The translations under genes were made by a program, and so were the position numbers. From the NCBI RefSeq assembly GCF_003387475.1, contig NZ_QUNO01000007.1, positions 248,001 to 312,000 of the forward strand: DNA of 64,000 bases, read 5' to 3'. Source of the stretch: Kutzneria buriramensis (GTDB taxonomy: Bacteria; Actinomycetota; Actinomycetes; Mycobacteriales; Pseudonocardiaceae). The notes under the pieces are model-generated. The model did not search any database. It worked only from the letters and a program-made list of their open reading frames with translations, and had not been told where the DNA came from. Each line of letters starts with the position of its first letter. Position 1 is the first letter of the stretch. Of this stretch, positions 21,068 to 48,102 are shown piece by piece.

Positions 21068-21256
21068 CAGTTCCGGCTAGCTGGTACGCGGGGCTGCCGG
21101 TGAGCACCCAGGGCAAGACGCCCGTTCGCTGCGACGACACGCGCCCGCTCAACCGCGAAGCTTTTGGTCGCAAGGAAATCATCGTCGAGCATCGGGACGT
21201 GGGATGTGTGCGACCGAGAAGCTGGAGAACCGAGACGGACACCCGCGGTGAACGGT

Positions 21257-21970
21257 ATGGCCGGCGACCGGGACCAGGCGATTGCCACGGCCATCGGCAG
21301 GCTGGCCAGCGCGGACAACGTGCCGGTCAGGCTTGAGCATGTCTGCCGCGCCGGCGCGGCCGCGCTCGGCGTCGCCGGGGTGAGCCTGTGCACGATCGGC
21401 GACCTCGGGCTGGGCGAGCCGGTCTACGCGACCGATGCCGTCAGTGAGCGCGCGATAGAACTGGAGATCACCGTCGGCACCGGTCCGGGCATGCAGGCGC
21501 TGCGGAACGGCAACGTGGTGATGTCGGCCGATCTGGACAGCAGCACCAGCCTGCACCAGTGGCCCGCGCTGGTCCCGATGTTGAGCGCTCTCGGCGTGTG
21601 CGCCGTGTTCGCGTTCCCGCTGACCGCCGGCGAGATCACGGTCGGCGTCCTCGAGCTGTATCGCGCCGGACCCGGCGCGTTGCCGATGGCGGCAATGGCC
21701 GATGGGCAGCTTTTCGCGGACTACGCCATGGCATTGCTGCTCGACAGCGATTACTGGCGGCCCGGGAGCGATGTGGAGGACGTGCTCGCCGGCACGTTGC
21801 CGGAACAATGGAGGCGGGTGAACCTGGCGACCTGTGTCATTGCGGCCCAGCTTGGCATCGGCGCGACGCAGGCGTACCAGCGCCTGCGCGCGTACGCGTT
21901 CACTGTGGACTGTCAGCTGCGGCAGGTCGCCGACGCCGTGTTGGAGGGGTGCATCGAGCTCACACCGTGA
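21257..21970 (+). CDS. GAF domain protein with degenerate ANTAR-like C-terminus
   Basis: 237 residues from ATG 21257; GTG 21248 is possible, but ATG aligns with the start of the paralogue at 47365 (MAGDRDQAIATAI versus MWADRERRVAEAI). Residues about 20-165 form a GAF domain (VSLCTIGDLGLGEPVYATD). The last 55 residues (VNLATCVIAAQLGIGATQAY ... ADAVLEGCIEL) have the three-helix length and spacing of ANTAR RNA-binding domains, but the usual QAKG is replaced by LATC. It may have lost RNA binding. It follows the histidine kinase by 190 bp and may share its signalling context. Confidence 0.7.
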   Translation: MAGDRDQAIATAIGRLASADNVPVRLEHVCRAGAAALGVAGVSLCTIGDLGLGEPVYATDAVSERAIELEITVGTGPGMQALRNGNVVMSADLDSSTSLHQWPALVPMLSALGVCAVFAFPLTAGEITVGVLELYRAGPGALPMAAMADGQLFADYAMALLLDSDYWRPGSDVEDVLAGTLPEQWRRVNLATCVIAAQLGIGATQAYQRLRAYAFTVDCQLRQVADAVLEGCIELTP

Positions 21971-22002
21971 TCCTGCACGGTACGGGTCGTCGGCACCCGG
22001 GG

Positions 22003-23550
22003 TCAGCTGTCGTTGTCCCGGTGGGCGCGCACGGCAGCGCTGGCCTGGGTGATCAGGGTGAGCGCCTCGGCCGGATCGCGTACCTCGGATGCCCGCTGAC
22101 GGATGTGGTGGCGATGCTCGGCCGGCGCGACGGTCAGATGCCGGCGCATGGCGACCGCGAAAGCTCCCCAGAAGGCGGGCGAGCGGACCGCGTCCGCGAC
22201 GGCGGGCGGCGCCGTCGCGTGAGCGGTGTCGTCCGGCTCGCTGATCCCGGAATCCGCCGGCTCGGGCAACGTGGTCGGTGTGTCACGCCGAGGCTCGGGC
22301 AGTGTGAGCAGGTGCAGCAGGTCGTGGGCTGCGGCGTCGCGATGGGTCAGGGGCCGCAGTCCGAACAATCGCGCCACGGTTGCGAGCACGGAACTGTGGT
22401 CGTAGACGGTGTGGTCGATCGTGCCGCGCGGGATCAGCGGGGAGATGACGACCGCGGGCACCCGCACGCCCAGTCGGTCGAAGGTGAAGTCATGGTGGTT
22501 GTTGTGCGGGAACGAGATCTGGTCTCCCGGTGGGACCGCCGGCGGGGGCGAGACGTGGTCGTAGAAGCCGCCGTGCTCGTCGTAGGTGATGACCAGCACG
22601 GAGTGCTCCCAGTGCGGGGAGTTCCTGATGGCCTCGTAGACCGTCTTCACGAGGCGCTCGCCACTGGTGACATCCCCGAGCGGGTGCTGGGAGTTTCCGC
22701 CACGGAAGTCCCTCGCTCCGAACAGGACGTCGCCGTAGTCCGGTTCGATGAACACGTATCGGGGTCGGTAACCGGGGTCGCGGAGTCGCTCGCCGAAGGT
22801 CGCGGCGCGGGAGAAGTGGCCGGCGAGCAGGTTGCGGCCCATTCCCCGGAGTGCGAGGACCTGGGGGAACTCGTCGCCGGCGACGACCTCCCACGGGATG
22901 TGGTTGTCGCCCAGCCGGTCGAAGATCGTGCCGTTGTCGAAGTGGTATCCGTCGAGCACGTAGCCGGCGACCTTGTCCCAGTTGCTCGGGCTGTCGTCCA
23001 GACCGCCGGACGACGCCGCGTGGACGAACAACCGGTTGGGCCACGTGGGTCCCGGCAGCGCGGAGAACCAGCGGTCACATACCGCGAACTCCCGTGCGAG
23101 CGCGTTGAGCACGGGAAGCTGCGCGGGCGCGAAACACTGCATGATCCTGTCCGGACGTGCTGAGCCCGTTGCGCGGTAGCTCGACACGAAGCCGGAGTTG
23201 TCGATCGGCGGGTATCCGGCCTTGGGTTGGTAGACGACGTGAGGACCACACAGCTGTTCCACGACGTTCGCGAACTCATGACCGGGATCCCTGTCCTGCG
23301 CGGTGATGAAGTAGTCCGCCGGCGTGCTCGCCACCACCGCACGCCCGGTTGCGGGATCGGTGTTGACGCCGAGGAGGCCGACCAGCCCGTCGGGTGTCGA
23401 CCGTGCTCCGGTGGCCGCGTCCGTGCCGACGACACCGGAGAACCCCAGCATGTGATCGAAGGAGCGGTTTTCCAGCATGAGCACGAAAATCCTTTGTGGA
23501 GCGGGCGCGAAACCTGGCTGCGCGGTCACTTGGCCACCGTCCCACGCCAT
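22003..23550 (-). CDS. Phospholipase C / acid phosphatase-type phosphoesterase (PF04185-like)
   Basis: 515 residues. Signature motifs of the bacterial phospholipase C/AcpA superfamily are seen: FVLMLENRSFDHMLG at the N-terminus (metal site and nucleophile region), FALPGPTWPNR-like SALPGPTWPNRLFVHAASSG, VLVITYDEHGGFYDHVSPPP and VRVPAVVISPLIP. It would hydrolyse phospholipid head groups or phosphate monoesters. Unlike many relatives, no signal peptide precedes the catalytic domain (MAWDGGQVTAQPGF), so it is probably cytosolic or leaves by another route. The last 110 residues are an unassigned Pro/Ala-rich and helical tail. Confidence 0.83.
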   Translation of the reverse strand: MAWDGGQVTAQPGFAPAPQRIFVLMLENRSFDHMLGFSGVVGTDAATGARSTPDGLVGLLGVNTDPATGRAVVASTPADYFITAQDRDPGHEFANVVEQLCGPHVVYQPKAGYPPIDNSGFVSSYRATGSARPDRIMQCFAPAQLPVLNALAREFAVCDRWFSALPGPTWPNRLFVHAASSGGLDDSPSNWDKVAGYVLDGYHFDNGTIFDRLGDNHIPWEVVAGDEFPQVLALRGMGRNLLAGHFSRAATFGERLRDPGYRPRYVFIEPDYGDVLFGARDFRGGNSQHPLGDVTSGERLVKTVYEAIRNSPHWEHSVLVITYDEHGGFYDHVSPPPAVPPGDQISFPHNNHHDFTFDRLGVRVPAVVISPLIPRGTIDHTVYDHSSVLATVARLFGLRPLTHRDAAAHDLLHLLTLPEPRRDTPTTLPEPADSGISEPDDTAHATAPPAVADAVRSPAFWGAFAVAMRRHLTVAPAEHRHHIRQRASEVRDPAEALTLITQASAAVRAHRDNDS

Positions 23551-23639
23551 GACTGACGTGTATAGGTGGCCACGTCGGTCCTCTCGGGTGTCGGATGGGC
23601 TGAGTCGACTGCGCCCACAGCCGGCAGTGTCCGGAACGG

Positions 23640-43272: not shown

Positions 43273-44848
43273 ATGGCTGAACACGACACCGCCACCCCAC
43301 CCGGGCTGGGTGGGATGTGGGACCTTCAACGCGGCCGTCTGCGCCGCGACTTCCATCGGCTCGACGTGCTGTTCTTCCTCGTCTGCACACTGGTCGGCCT
43401 GGACACGATCGGGTCCGCCGCGGCGAACGGACCGCAGGGCCTGACCTGGCTGGTCGCGCTGGCCGTGGTCTTCTTCCTGCCGTACGGCCTGATGGTGGCC
43501 GAGCTGGGCACGGCCTTTCCGGTCGAAGGCGGCCCGTACGTCTGGACGAAGCTCGCGCTCGGCCGGTTGGTCGCCGCGGTGAACCAGTTCCTGTACTGGT
43601 TCTCCAATCCACTGTGGATCGGCGGCTCGCTGTGCATTGTCGCGATCAGCACCTTCGAGGCGTTTTTCGTGCCGCTGCCCGGCGCCTGGAAGTACGTGGC
43701 CGGGCTGGTGTTCATCTGGGCCGGCGTGCTGGCGGTGCTGTTGACGGTGCGGGTCGGCAAGTGGCTGCCGACGATCGGCGCCCTGGCGCGTATCGTTCTG
43801 CTGGCCTTCTTCGCCGTCCGTGGTGATCTACGCGGTGCGCAACGGCCTGCAGCCCTTGTCGGCGCGGGACTTCACGCCGACCTACGCCGGATTTGTCGGC
43901 CTGGTGCCGGTCCTGATCTTCAACTACGTCGGGTTCGAACTGCCCAGCACGGCTTCGGAGGAGATGACCGACGCGCGGCGGGACATCCCGTTCGCGGTGC
44001 TCCGGTCCGGTCTCGCGGCATTCCTGCTCTACGGCGGCCCCATCGTGGGGATCCTCCTCGTGCTGCCGGGGAAGGCGATCGGCAGCCTCAGCGGGTTCAT
44101 CGACGCGGTCAAGGCCGTGTTCACCGTCTACGGCGGCTCGGTGGCCGAGGACGGCACGGTCACGCTGTCCGGCTGGGGCCAGGCGTTGGCTTCGATCGCC
44201 GCGGCCGGGCTGATTGTGGGCGTTCTGACCAGCGGTATCACCTGGGCGATGGGCGGCGACCGGGCACAGGCGGTGGCCTGCGCCGACGGCGCCGGTCCGG
44301 CGTGGTTCGGTCGGATCTCGCGGCGCTTCGGCACCCCGGTGCGGGTGAACGTGTTCTCCGGCGTGCTCGCCTCGATCGTGATGGCCGTCGCCTTCCTGCT
44401 CAGCAACGGTTCCGCCGACAAGTACTTCGCCGCCGGACTCGGCCTGGCCATTTCCACGAACTTCATCTCGTACGTGTTCACGTTCCCGGCGCTGGCCGTG
44501 CTGCGCCGCAAGCTGCCGGACGTTCCGCGACCCTATCGCGTGCCAGGGGGCCGGATCGGGGTGCGGATCGTCGCCGGCGTCACCTCGGCAATGGTGCTGT
44601 ACACCGTGATCGTGCTGATCTGGCCGGGATTCGGGGTCGGCTGGTTCGGGACCGAAGGCGACCCGGCGGCTTCGCTGCCGAAGAGCTTCAGCGGGCAACG
44701 CTGGTCGTACACCCTGAGCCAGGTCGTACCGCTTCTGGTGATCGTGGCGCTCGGATTCGCCGCCTACGCGGCAGGTGCTCCCACGCGCCGCGCCGAACGC
44801 GAGTCGCTCGCCGCAGCCGTGCCGACAACGGGCCAGTCGAGTTCCTGA
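43273..44848 (+). pseudogene. APC-superfamily amino acid permease interrupted by a frameshift near 43818
   Basis: From ATG 43273 one frame encodes the first five membrane helices (LDVLFFLVCTLVGLDTIGSA, FPVEGGPYVWTKLALGRLVA) to ARIVLLAFFAV. The second frame continues without a gap in meaning from VVIYAVRNGLQPLSARDFTP through helices 6-12 to TGA 44846-44848 (FELPSTASEEMTDARRDIPF is the APC signature region). Two missing bases (or one extra) around 43818 account for the shift. Corrected, the protein would be about 525 residues, normal for the family. Either a recent pseudogene or a sequencing error; I cannot decide from one sequence. Confidence 0.75.
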
Positions 44849-45473
44849 AACCACGGCTTGGCGCGCCGCGGGCAGACCGGAGACGGGATCGCTGCTGGCG
44901 GCACACCGGCCTCGCCGCAACGTATGCCGGGGCATCGGAGCAGTAGTCAGCACAGTCAACCCATGCCGTGCTGGCACCCGAGCGGTCCGGCGCGGCCGGC
45001 GACCCAGATCGGCATGGCGGCGGTGTGGACGGAGATGAAGGTGACCCGGAGGCCTCCGGGTGCTCCGACACCGGCGCCGACTCCTGCCCTGACGTCGGAG
45101 TCGGTCCACCGTCTCGCTGGGTACCTCGAACAACACGGCCGCGCTACTCGTCGCAGACCGTGTCCACCCTCTTCCTGGGACAACAGTGCGAAGTGGACCC
45201 CGTGGGGACGCTACTGTCCTACCGAGAAGCAAATGTATCCATTCGCTGCCGCCGTGTCTCGCCGGAACTGTCCCGAACCGGACCCAGAACTGTCGTCGCC
45301 AGGCCAATTCCCGGGAAACGTGCCGCGGCAGATGGAGGCACGCCCGGAGGTGGCCACATTTGGCCACGTGGCAAACTCTCACCCCACCGGGGGTATTCGC
45401 TACTTGTGACTCCTGATTGTGTGGACCACAATGCCTGGATCGGTTGCACGGCTGCCGAAAATGAGGATGTGTC
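44849..45473. other. Long leader/intergenic region before the transporter-ANTAR fusion, with hairpins
   Basis: No gene is supported in these 625 bp. Near the 3' end there are GTGGCC (45350-45355) and GGCCAC (45362-45367) around the six-base loop ACATTT; ACCCC/GGGGT at 45381-45394; and ATTGTG-TGGAC-CACAAT at 45416-45432, an inverted repeat that could be an operator or stem. A TGTCATGC start context for 45474 follows. Whether any stem is an ANTAR target is unproven. Confidence 0.35.
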
Positions 45474-47348
45474 ATGCGCTCGGCCTTGGTCGACATCGTA
45501 CGAAATGTGAATGAGAAGACCGCGAGGGGATCGTCGGCGGTAACGGCGATGGTGATCGTCGTCGGGTTCGCGTTGACCTCCTGGGTATGGACGTTGTTGG
45601 TCCTACCCCAGGTAGCGCTGACAGCCCGGTTCGGAACTGCCGCTCTCGGGCAGGTCATGCTGCTCTCTGCGTCGCTGGCCATGACCATGGTGGGACGGCT
45701 GGCCGCCGGCATACTGACCGACCGCTGCGGCGCCCGCGTGATGCTGCCGGCGGTCAGCGTGGCCGCCGCGGTGCCGCTGGCCGTGGTCGGGACCGTGGAG
45801 TCGATACCGGCGCAACCCCTGCTTGTGTGCGCGGCCGGAGTCACGGGCACGATGTTCCCGGTCGGGATCGCCGCAGTCGCCCGCGCCTATCCGGTGCGAC
45901 GACGGGGCCTGGCAGTGGCGACCTGCGGCGCCGCTAGCCTGGGTGGGCTGGTGGTAGGCGCTCTCACCGGGCCGGCGCTGCTCGACGGACGTCGCTTGGT
46001 GCTGGTGCTGGCCGTCACGCTGTTGGTCGGATTCGCGATACTGGCTCCGACACTGCTCCGCGACAGGAGCCAGGGCATAGTGGAGCCGGCCTTACGGCGC
46101 ACGTTCACCAGGACGCTGGGTATTCCGTCGACATGCCGTCTCGTCCTGCTCTACGCAGTCCCGTTCGGCATCATGCTGGCGATCATGCTGTACCTACCGG
46201 CCTACTTGAACGTCGAGTACGGGCTGGCCCGGACTCCGAGGGAGGGCCTCACGGTGGGCTGCCTCGCGGTGGCCGCCGTGGCACGCCCGATCGGTGGCTG
46301 GCTGGCCGACCGGAACGCCGGCGGACCGACACTGGTGACCTGTTTCGCTGTCGCCGGTGCGTGCGCGCTGGCGCAGGCGTTCCCGCCCCCTTTGCCCTGG
46401 GGCGTGCTCACGCTGGGCGGGGCAGCGCTGTGTCTGGGCATGGCGAGCGGGACAGTTCTGGCCCTGATCGGTTCGCTTGCCCCGACGGGCCGGGTGGGCG
46501 CGGTGGCGGGAGTGGTCAGCTCCGTCGGCATAGCCGCCGCGCTGGGGCTTCCCGCGCTGATGTTCGCGACCTACGTCCTGGATGGTTCGTTCGGGATCGC
46601 CCTGGCCGTCGTGGCGGCGTTGCTGGTGGCCACCGCGGCCGGTGTTCGACGCTGGCGGAGCCTGTTCGGTATGCGCACCGAGTCGGCCGCGGTGGTGACC
46701 GCCGCGGGCACGCTGGTCGACGAGTTCGATCCGATCGAATTCCTGCACCGGGTGACCAGTTGGTGCGTGGATCTGCCCGAGATCGATGCCGCCGGCCTGT
46801 TGGTGGTCGATCACCACGGACACCTGCGCGCGGTGGCGTCCTCGGCTGAGGAGAACGCGCTGACGCGACTGCTGGAGATCCAGGACGCGCAGAGCCCCGC
46901 CCAGGAATGCCTACGCACCAACGCGGCGGTGCACCACGCAGATCTCGCGGCGGCCGCCCGCTGGCCGCATTTCGCCCCGCTGGCCGTACAGGCAGGATTC
47001 GGCTCGATGCAGGTGCTGCCGATGCGGCTGCGTGGCCAGACCATCGGCGTGCTCATCCTGCTGAGCAGACAACTCGGGGCGCTCAACCACACCGAGGACA
47101 CCGTGCAGGCTCTGGTCGATCTGGCCGCCGTTTCCCTGGTGCACGAACACGCGGTGCGTGACCCGAAGCTGTTGCTCACCCAACGCCAGGCACTGTTGCA
47201 CGGACGCGCGGTCATCGAGCAGGCCAAGGGCGTGCTGGCCGCACGCCTCGGCGTGGACATGGACACCGCCTTCACCCTGCTGCGCGGCCACGGTCGGCCG
47301 CTGGTCGACATGGCCCGCTACGCGATCAACGGCCGACCACCGCAGTGA
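45474..47348 (+). CDS. NarK-type MFS nitrate/nitrite porter fused to GAF and ANTAR domains
   Basis: 624 residues in one unbroken frame. Residues about 20-395 are a 12-helix MFS porter of the NNP (NarK) family: the TM2 arginine motif GRLAAGILTDRCGARVM, the glycine-rich GLAVATCGAASLGGLVVGAL and the TM8 arginine motif VARPIGGWLADRNAGG. Both arginines that bind nitrate in NarK have equivalents. Residues about 410-555 form a cytoplasmic GAF domain (DAAGLLVVDHHGHLRAVASS). Residues about 562-620 are a good ANTAR domain, GRAVIEQAKGVLAARLGVDM, followed by DTAFTLLRGHGRPLVDMARY. ANTAR domains bind RNA stem-loops and prevent termination, as in NasR and AmiR. The next gene, 16 bp on, is another GAF/ANTAR protein. 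A membrane transporter that carries its own antitermination domain is unusual; nitrate or nitrite sensing by the porter is inference. Confidence 0.85.
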   Translation: MRSALVDIVRNVNEKTARGSSAVTAMVIVVGFALTSWVWTLLVLPQVALTARFGTAALGQVMLLSASLAMTMVGRLAAGILTDRCGARVMLPAVSVAAAVPLAVVGTVESIPAQPLLVCAAGVTGTMFPVGIAAVARAYPVRRRGLAVATCGAASLGGLVVGALTGPALLDGRRLVLVLAVTLLVGFAILAPTLLRDRSQGIVEPALRRTFTRTLGIPSTCRLVLLYAVPFGIMLAIMLYLPAYLNVEYGLARTPREGLTVGCLAVAAVARPIGGWLADRNAGGPTLVTCFAVAGACALAQAFPPPLPWGVLTLGGAALCLGMASGTVLALIGSLAPTGRVGAVAGVVSSVGIAAALGLPALMFATYVLDGSFGIALAVVAALLVATAAGVRRWRSLFGMRTESAAVVTAAGTLVDEFDPIEFLHRVTSWCVDLPEIDAAGLLVVDHHGHLRAVASSAEENALTRLLEIQDAQSPAQECLRTNAAVHHADLAAAARWPHFAPLAVQAGFGSMQVLPMRLRGQTIGVLILLSRQLGALNHTEDTVQALVDLAAVSLVHEHAVRDPKLLLTQRQALLHGRAVIEQAKGVLAARLGVDMDTAFTLLRGHGRPLVDMARYAINGRPPQ

Positions 47349-47364
47349 ACGGACAAGGACGCGG

Positions 47365-48102
47365 ATGTGGGCAGACCGAGAGCGCAGGGTGGCGGAGGCG
47401 ATTCGGGAACTGGCCCGCGCGGAGGGCGCGCCGGTCGCCGCCCGTCACGTGTGCCGGGCCTGTTCCAAAGAGATGGCGGCCGGTGGGGTCGCCCTGTACG
47501 TCATCGGTGACCTGGGGCTGGGCGAGGTGGTGTTCACCACCGACCCGGTCAGCGGTCTGGTGGCCGAACACGAGGTGACGTTGGGGGAAGGACCCGCCAG
47601 CGACGCGGTGGAGCAGGGGCTGCCAGTGCTGGTGCCGGATCTGACCGGCGAGGCCGCGGCGTGCCGTTGGCCGGTGTTCGCGCCGGCAGCGGTGGCCGCG
47701 GGCGTTGCCGCCGTGTTCGCTTTCCCTCTCGCGATGGGGCTGGTCACGGTGGGGTCACTGGAGGTCTACCGGGCGACCTGGGGCGACCTGTCGGACGACG
47801 AGGTCAACAGCGGTCTGCTGTTCGCCGAAGCGGCCATGCAGTTGCTCGTCGAACGCATCCAGGGCCAGCCCACCATCTGGGCGGACGACCTGTTCGCCAA
47901 GGGGTTCAACCCCGACTGGGCGGTGATCCATCAGGCCACGGGAATGGTCTCGATCCACCTCCAGACCGATCTGACATCCGCCTTCCTTCGGCTGCGTGCG
48001 CACGCCTACCTCACCGACCGTGCGCTGTCGGACGTCGCCCTCGACGTCGTCACGCAGCGGTTGAAGATCTCCCCGGATTCGGACAACGAAGGCCAGTCGT
48101 AG
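47365..48102 (+). CDS. GAF-ANTAR regulator following the NarK-GAF-ANTAR gene
   Basis: 245 residues from ATG 47365, with a GGACAAGGAC context and only 16 bp after the fusion gene, so co-transcribed. GAF domain about 20-165 (GGVALYVIGDLGLGEVVFTT); ANTAR at the end: VIHQATGMVSIHLQTDLTSA, then FLRLRAHAYLTDRALSDVAL. The ANTAR helix has HQATG instead of the common QAKG, as in a large actinobacterial subgroup. It is paralogous to the protein at 21257. It could dimerise with the membrane-bound ANTAR protein or act as its soluble partner. A terminator follows at 48234-48258. Confidence 0.8.
   Translation: MWADRERRVAEAIRELARAEGAPVAARHVCRACSKEMAAGGVALYVIGDLGLGEVVFTTDPVSGLVAEHEVTLGEGPASDAVEQGLPVLVPDLTGEAAACRWPVFAPAAVAAGVAAVFAFPLAMGLVTVGSLEVYRATWGDLSDDEVNSGLLFAEAAMQLLVERIQGQPTIWADDLFAKGFNPDWAVIHQATGMVSIHLQTDLTSAFLRLRAHAYLTDRALSDVALDVVTQRLKISPDSDNEGQS

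Follow-up and report, generated by a model that had tools for sequence, protein, structure and literature searches.

A NarK-like porter fused to GAF and ANTAR domains in Kutzneria: a possible transporter-derived membrane sensor

Introduction

The locus described here raises the question of what an ANTAR domain, known from RNA-binding antiterminators, does at the end of a nitrate/nitrite-type membrane porter. The DNA analysed, called the window, is a stretch of 64,000 nt from the soil actinobacterium Kutzneria buriramensis (assembly GCF_003387475.1, contig NZ_QUNO01000007.1, positions 248,001-312,000, forward strand). An earlier reading of these letters without database searches (the sequence-only reading) described a porter, a GAF and an ANTAR domain in one frame and proposed a membrane transceptor that could switch antitermination. 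Soluble GAF-ANTAR proteins are labelled GA1 below, and a GAF/ANTAR-like type encoded next to them GA2.

The fusion gene and its neighbourhood

The single 624-residue frame with MFS, GAF and ANTAR domains was confirmed, and all three domains score above their Pfam cut-offs (Table 1). MFS_1 is matched at residues 28-352 with 87 bits (cut-off 33.4) and GAF_2 at residues 421-552 with 40.9 bits (cut-off 28.6), and the Pfam GAF family is also found above its cut-off at residues 419-555. The ANTAR region, residues 572-605, exceeds the family cut-off as well (38.4 versus 27.3 bits), in a match that covers only positions 4-37 of the 54 in the profile. A full-length ortholog with 67% identity is present in Kutzneria sp. 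CA-103260 (NZ_CP073318.1), so that the fusion does not depend on this assembly; the sequence-only reading had named a frame break or sequencing error between residues 395 and 410 as a refutation. The same frame in this independent, complete genome rules out an assembly artefact. The fusion of a NarK-like porter with GAF and ANTAR domains is real and unusual.

Table 1. Features of the fusion locus; positions refer to the window.
Feature	Position	Strand	Basis
Fusion gene: NarK-like MFS porter + GAF + ANTAR, 624 aa	45474..47348	+	Open frame, Pfam, NCBIfam, ortholog
Porter domain, ~residues 24-394, 12 hydrophobic helices	45543..46655	+	Pfam, hydropathy, alignment
Junction from TM12 to GAF, ~residues 395-418	46656..46727	+	Alignment to soluble GAF-ANTAR relatives
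GAF domain, ~residues 419-556	46728..47141	+	Pfam
ANTAR domain, residues 572-624, four residues deleted between helices 2 and 3	47187..47345	+	Pfam, alignment
Partner gene, GA2 type: GAF + degenerate ANTAR, 245 aa	47365..48102	+	Alignment; sub-cut-off Pfam matches

Hydropathy and alignment to NarK types give 12 helices, the last of which ends near residue 391. Similarity to soluble GAF-ANTAR relatives mostly begins at residues 404-408, so that the junction between the two halves is short. The N- and C-terminal ends of MFS porters are both cytoplasmic, and the GAF-ANTAR tail would thus sit where RNA is. AlphaFold2 gave unusable models on two-row alignments (pLDDT 35.5 and 41.1). A phmmer search of the PDB returned nothing at E ≤ 0.01 for the whole fusion and mostly chance matches to designed propellers for the GAF-ANTAR part.

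The partner gene also has an ortholog in CA-103260 (77% identity), in the same gene order as in the window. When 39 kb of CA-103260 were compared with the window by blastn, three regions matched and no others: the cassette of fusion and partner genes (window 45464-48101, 78%), a gene for a phosphoesterase (22001-23603, 87.5%) and, over a short length, a paralogous GA2 gene (67%). The phosphoesterase gene lies at ~1.9 kb from the cassette in CA-103260 and at ~22 kb in the window, a sign of related neighbourhoods that have undergone rearrangement. The window holds a second GA2-type GAF-ANTAR gene (21164-21967, plus strand) beside this phosphoesterase (PF04185; 22003-23550, minus strand). Among the flanking genes tested around the fusion there were no nitrate genes. 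An amino-acid permease-like gene (43273-44848, plus strand) is interrupted near 43.8 kb and continues in another frame, its second piece matching AA_permease_2; either the gene is frameshifted or the sequence contains an error.

Distribution of the fusion

The fusion was found in two of the seven genomes of the genus (E ≤ 1e-60). At the same threshold no genome beyond the window's own carried it among 394 genomes of the class, 397 of the order and 396 of the phylum, samples that overlap and in which, for the large groups, three to four candidates per genome were scored. Among 297 genomes of the family (E ≤ 1e-30), a match spanning both halves occurred only in the two fusion genomes, among the matches listed. 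A search of genome contigs returned one relative, and although 31 plasmid records matched the fusion, none aligned over 80% of the query at a single place. A widespread MFS-GAF-ANTAR architecture was not borne out by the genus, family, order, class, phylum or plasmid searches, and the count across genomes that the sequence-only reading had suggested shows the fusion to be rare.

The GAF-ANTAR half and the partner protein

Soluble GA1 proteins share 40-48% identity with the GAF-ANTAR half, among the matches listed. The ANTAR residues of this half were mapped through NasR (chain 4akk) and PMC7496416, the available text of which gives R340, K347, W362, R366 and N373 of NasR as critical for RNA binding and reports that the N373A substitution abolished it. 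Four of these five residues are kept in the fusion, as R578, K585, F600 (Phe for Trp) and R604. The loop that carries the N373 equivalent is missing through a four-residue deletion in both orthologs. This deletion occurs in none of the 14 unfused GAF-ANTAR proteins aligned, of which 11 have Asn at that site. The two fusion orthologs do not differ at any of residues 573-606.

The neighbouring gene, described earlier as encoding a soluble GAF-ANTAR protein and possible partner, does start (at 47365) 16 bp past the fusion stop and is of the kind found in a recurrent two-gene module, but its domains stay below the Pfam cut-offs (ANTAR 20.3 versus 27.3 bits, GAF_2 27.2 versus 28.6) and two RNA-critical residues are replaced, with Thr at the position of NasR K347 and Trp at that of R340. 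The partner aligns over its length with the GA2 type. Among the 19 unfused GA1 loci returned, 18 have a GA2 gene immediately upstream of GA1, which makes the pair a recurrent module whose order is reversed at the fusion. Lysine at the K347 position is found in none of 23 GA2-type rows, the partner and its ortholog included, and a few keep the arginine; rows without the lysine include proteins that adjoin normal GA1 partners. To judge from these alignments, GA2 may be a widespread ANTAR-like type in which RNA binding on its own is possibly absent, and the pattern suggests a division of labour in which the face that binds RNA may come from GA1 and a regulatory face from GA2.

The K. buriramensis genome (65 contigs) contains a large ANTAR set, with 19 matches (E ≤ 0.001) of which 18 are above the cut-off. 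In stretch L083 (C13 of this genome; 5839-8202, minus strand) a 788-codon frame appears by eye to combine an AraC-type HTH, a GAF-like region and ANTAR (82.5 bits), hence DNA- and RNA-type domains in one chain. A 717-codon frame in stretch L084 (C8; 5494-7644, minus strand) has ANTAR near its N-terminal end (28.3 bits), followed, by eye, by GAF/PAS-type regions and a SpoIIE-type phosphatase.

Search for target RNA

Target RNA was sought as pairs of hexaloop hairpins carrying A1 and G4, as described in the available text of PMC8164766, with zero mismatches and in a small share of the genome. This strict scan found none in the fusion leader, the junction, the leader of the ortholog or the 4.1-kb NarK stretch. 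In the 19-kb nitrate-assimilation locus there were no pairs on the plus strand and one on the minus strand, against 0.65 and 0.5 in shuffles, which is not beyond chance. The dual hexaloop stem-loops that the sequence-only reading proposed to seek in leaders of nitrate/nitrite genes were not seen beyond chance at the fusion or the nitrate locus, and since the scan was strict and local their absence is weak evidence. Rfam gave no matches in the window or in stretches L020 and L051. On the minus strand of stretch L072, a flank of the CA-103260 locus, four hexaloop pairs were counted versus 0.85 in shuffles, and on that of stretch L081 three overlapping pairs versus 0.65; both excesses may be due to chance among the 16 strands scanned, two of which, those of the window, were run without shuffles.

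These properties of the ANTAR half could be explained if the protein were an RNA-dead membrane tether. The only role of its ANTAR helices would then be to form pairs with the GA2 protein, or with GAF-ANTAR paralogues, holding these at the membrane or titrating them, and control by the porter would be optional. Deletion of the loop with the N373 equivalent, replacement of the RNA-critical residues of the partner, conservation of the gene pair and the lack of an RNA target in the strict, local scan are in agreement with this. However, conservation of the R340, K347, W362 and R366 equivalents and of residues 573-606 between the orthologs goes beyond the needs of pairing, and we regard the explanation as unlikely, though it stands up better than the two alternatives that concern the porter.

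The porter domain

The proposed NarK/NNP kinship of the porter is supported, since the best NCBIfam model for the fusion is that of the NarK family, TIGR00886. The scores, 77 bits for the window protein and 88 bits for the ortholog, do not reach the cut-off of 311.7, which is also missed by the other NarK of K. buriramensis (298 bits); four unfused relatives score 202-209. The fusion is far under both the cut-off and the unfused proteins, and the porter is therefore NarK-like but divergent. In a tree the fusion porters cluster with NarK and the NarK types linked to narG, to the exclusion of six further MFS proteins of the K. buriramensis genome (100/100). There they sit on a long stem with long branches, and their exact place is unsure, with bootstrap values that are not settled. 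Identity to 12 unfused NarK-type relatives, picked among the NarK-type matches listed in the family search, is 32-38%.

Porter residues were mapped with the E. coli NarK structure paper (PMC4432589) and an alignment through the K. buriramensis NarK, and the roles of substrate-site residues and of hinge G268 were taken from the available text of that paper. Both NarK-type arginines named by the sequence-only reading are present, R75 corresponding to E. coli R89 and R271 to R305, and F128, Y227 and F231 correspond to F147, Y263 and F267. The window protein is identical to E. coli NarK at F49, R89, F147, Y263, F267, R305, S366 and the hinge G268. The substrate site, formed by F49, R89, F147, N175, Y263, F267 and R305, is kept at six of seven positions in the window protein and at five in the ortholog, which has Cys at F49 and, elsewhere, Glu at S411. 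The equivalent of N175 is Leu in the fusions and Met in all 12 NarK2-type relatives.

The glycines show a different picture. Both fusions have other residues at the equivalents of NarK G85, G168, G365, G417 and G418, and retain the signature-motif glycines G164, G177, G408 and G414. Nitrate signature motifs 1 and 2 are thus incomplete (G168, G417 and G418 replaced), with losses that partly differ between the two orthologs, whereas the 12 unfused relatives retain G417/G418. Of the 202 columns that are invariant in these relatives, 98 are kept in the window protein, 91 in the ortholog and 80 in both, and R89, F147, Y263, F267, R305 and G268 are all among the residues kept in both. According to the available text of PMC4432589, the G408A, G418A and G268A mutants and a triple G363/G365/G367 mutant of E. 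coli NarK each lost uptake. Nitrate flux through the fusion is doubtful because signature-motif glycines needed for uptake by E. coli NarK are partly lost.

Between the two orthologs the porter has a dN/dS of ~0.63-0.65. For unfused relatives, compared in 66 pairs, the range is 0.13-0.35, and the phosphoesterase gene nearby gives 0.33. Values for the other parts, obtained by the same method, are 0.40 (GAF), 0.35 (ANTAR) and 0.48 (partner). The porter evolves about twice as loosely as its unfused relatives. Together with the residue pattern this indicates that substrate-site residues were spared and transport hinges eroded, under a constraint that is relaxed though not absent.

The genetic context of the porter differs as well. 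All 12 unfused relatives lie at ≤4.1 kb from a narG match above the cut-off, and 10 of the 12 within 0.75 kb. Neither fusion genome has a narG above the cut-off, and the only one of the seven genus genomes that does is without the fusion. In 19 kb around each of the 12 relatives, no GAF-ANTAR tail or gene was detected (blastp, frames of at least 150 aa, E ≤ 1e-5), and no unfused copy of this porter was found in the seven genus genomes (E ≤ 1e-8). The other NarK of K. buriramensis is encoded at a locus that by eye includes assimilatory nitrate-reductase genes, with a molybdopterin nitrate-reductase-like gene and an FAD-dependent gene.

A chance fusion in slow decay, kept through the short shared history of two species and with a porter half that has no distinct function, would account for the presence of the gene in just two of the genomes searched, for the high dN/dS of the porter relative to unfused pairs and for motif losses that partly differ between the orthologs. 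Both frames are nevertheless intact at 67% identity, the partner was kept at 77%, and substrate-site residues were spared although so few of the invariant columns survive in both fusions, and this makes decay quite unlikely. Least likely of all is a working nitrate/nitrite porter whose GAF-ANTAR tail controls its activity, oligomerisation or stability and not genes, which would fit the nearly whole substrate site, the NarK family as best match and the presence of another NarK beside what by eye are assimilatory nitrate-reductase genes, but not the lost motif glycines, the relaxed constraint on the porter or a regulator part that is better conserved than the porter.

Proposed mechanism

We tentatively prefer a transporter-derived, transceptor-like membrane sensor with a GAF-ANTAR output. 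The transceptor interpretation of the sequence-only reading is partly supported. Among single readings this sensor ranks first, because a protein that has lost its usual genetic partner still keeps residues of the substrate site and the RNA face, and we regard it as possible; the alternatives stay alive because of the deleted ANTAR loop, the degenerate partner, the lost glycines, the loose evolution of the porter, the RNA targets not found and the occurrence in two genomes only. Nitrate or nitrite as ligand, the coupling between the halves, the heterodimer, RNA binding and its targets, and antitermination as output are features that we infer.

In such a sensor, the NarK2-type porter domain, freed from respiratory nitrate reductase, would bind a small planar anion between its two bundles, most likely nitrate or nitrite. 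Movement of the C-bundle could be transmitted through TM12 and the short junction to the cytoplasmic GAF domain, and there alter the state of the ANTAR helices. The fusion ANTAR and the co-encoded GA2 protein would form one working complex, in the way that ordinary actinobacterial GA1/GA2 pairs may do. Binding of this complex to a target RNA would then change antitermination or translation. The more specific proposal, a nitrate porter turned receptor in which anion binding at the membrane drives ANTAR and nitrate/nitrite would thereby alter antitermination or translation without an intervening kinase, response regulator or DNA-binding protein, is somewhat unlikely. The locus would offer a natural test of the change from transporter to sensor, with contact residues kept, signature glycines lost and the operon partner narG gone.

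Comparison with known systems

By domain content the protein is a transceptor-type fusion, with a transporter fold and signalling-type output domains in one chain. The sequence-only reading was not aware of a described system of this design, and literature searched for ANTAR together with nitrate transporter, NarK, transceptor or MFS gave no MFS-ANTAR fusion. In the NarK/NNP family, the closest likeness is to narG-linked NarK2-type porters, which share the 12-helix MFS fold and the same substrate-site residues. The 12 compared have G417/G418, are without a GAF-ANTAR tail and are found at ≤4.1 kb from narG, whereas the fusions lost the glycines and occur in genomes without narG. Actinobacterial GA2-GA1 pairs have the same two protein types side by side, with 40-48% identity in the GAF-ANTAR part, but at the fusion locus the order is reversed, GA1 is joined to a porter and its ANTAR has the four-residue deletion.

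NasR, described in the available text of PMC7496416 as a nitrate-sensing one-component ANTAR antiterminator, also combines a sensor and ANTAR in one chain; the fusion shares with it a possible nitrate link and four of five RNA-critical residues. According to the same text NasR is a soluble homodimer with a NIT domain, whereas the fusion has an integral porter and GAF and lacks N373. Ks-Amt5 (PMC5764959) and CbrA (PMC13022988, PMC7096432) likewise join a transporter to a signalling part and, as far as the available texts describe them, use histidine kinases as output; the fusion has an MFS/NNP input and an ANTAR output. If the sensor reading is true, a single protein, made of porter and ANTAR, would connect a ligand at the membrane with RNA.
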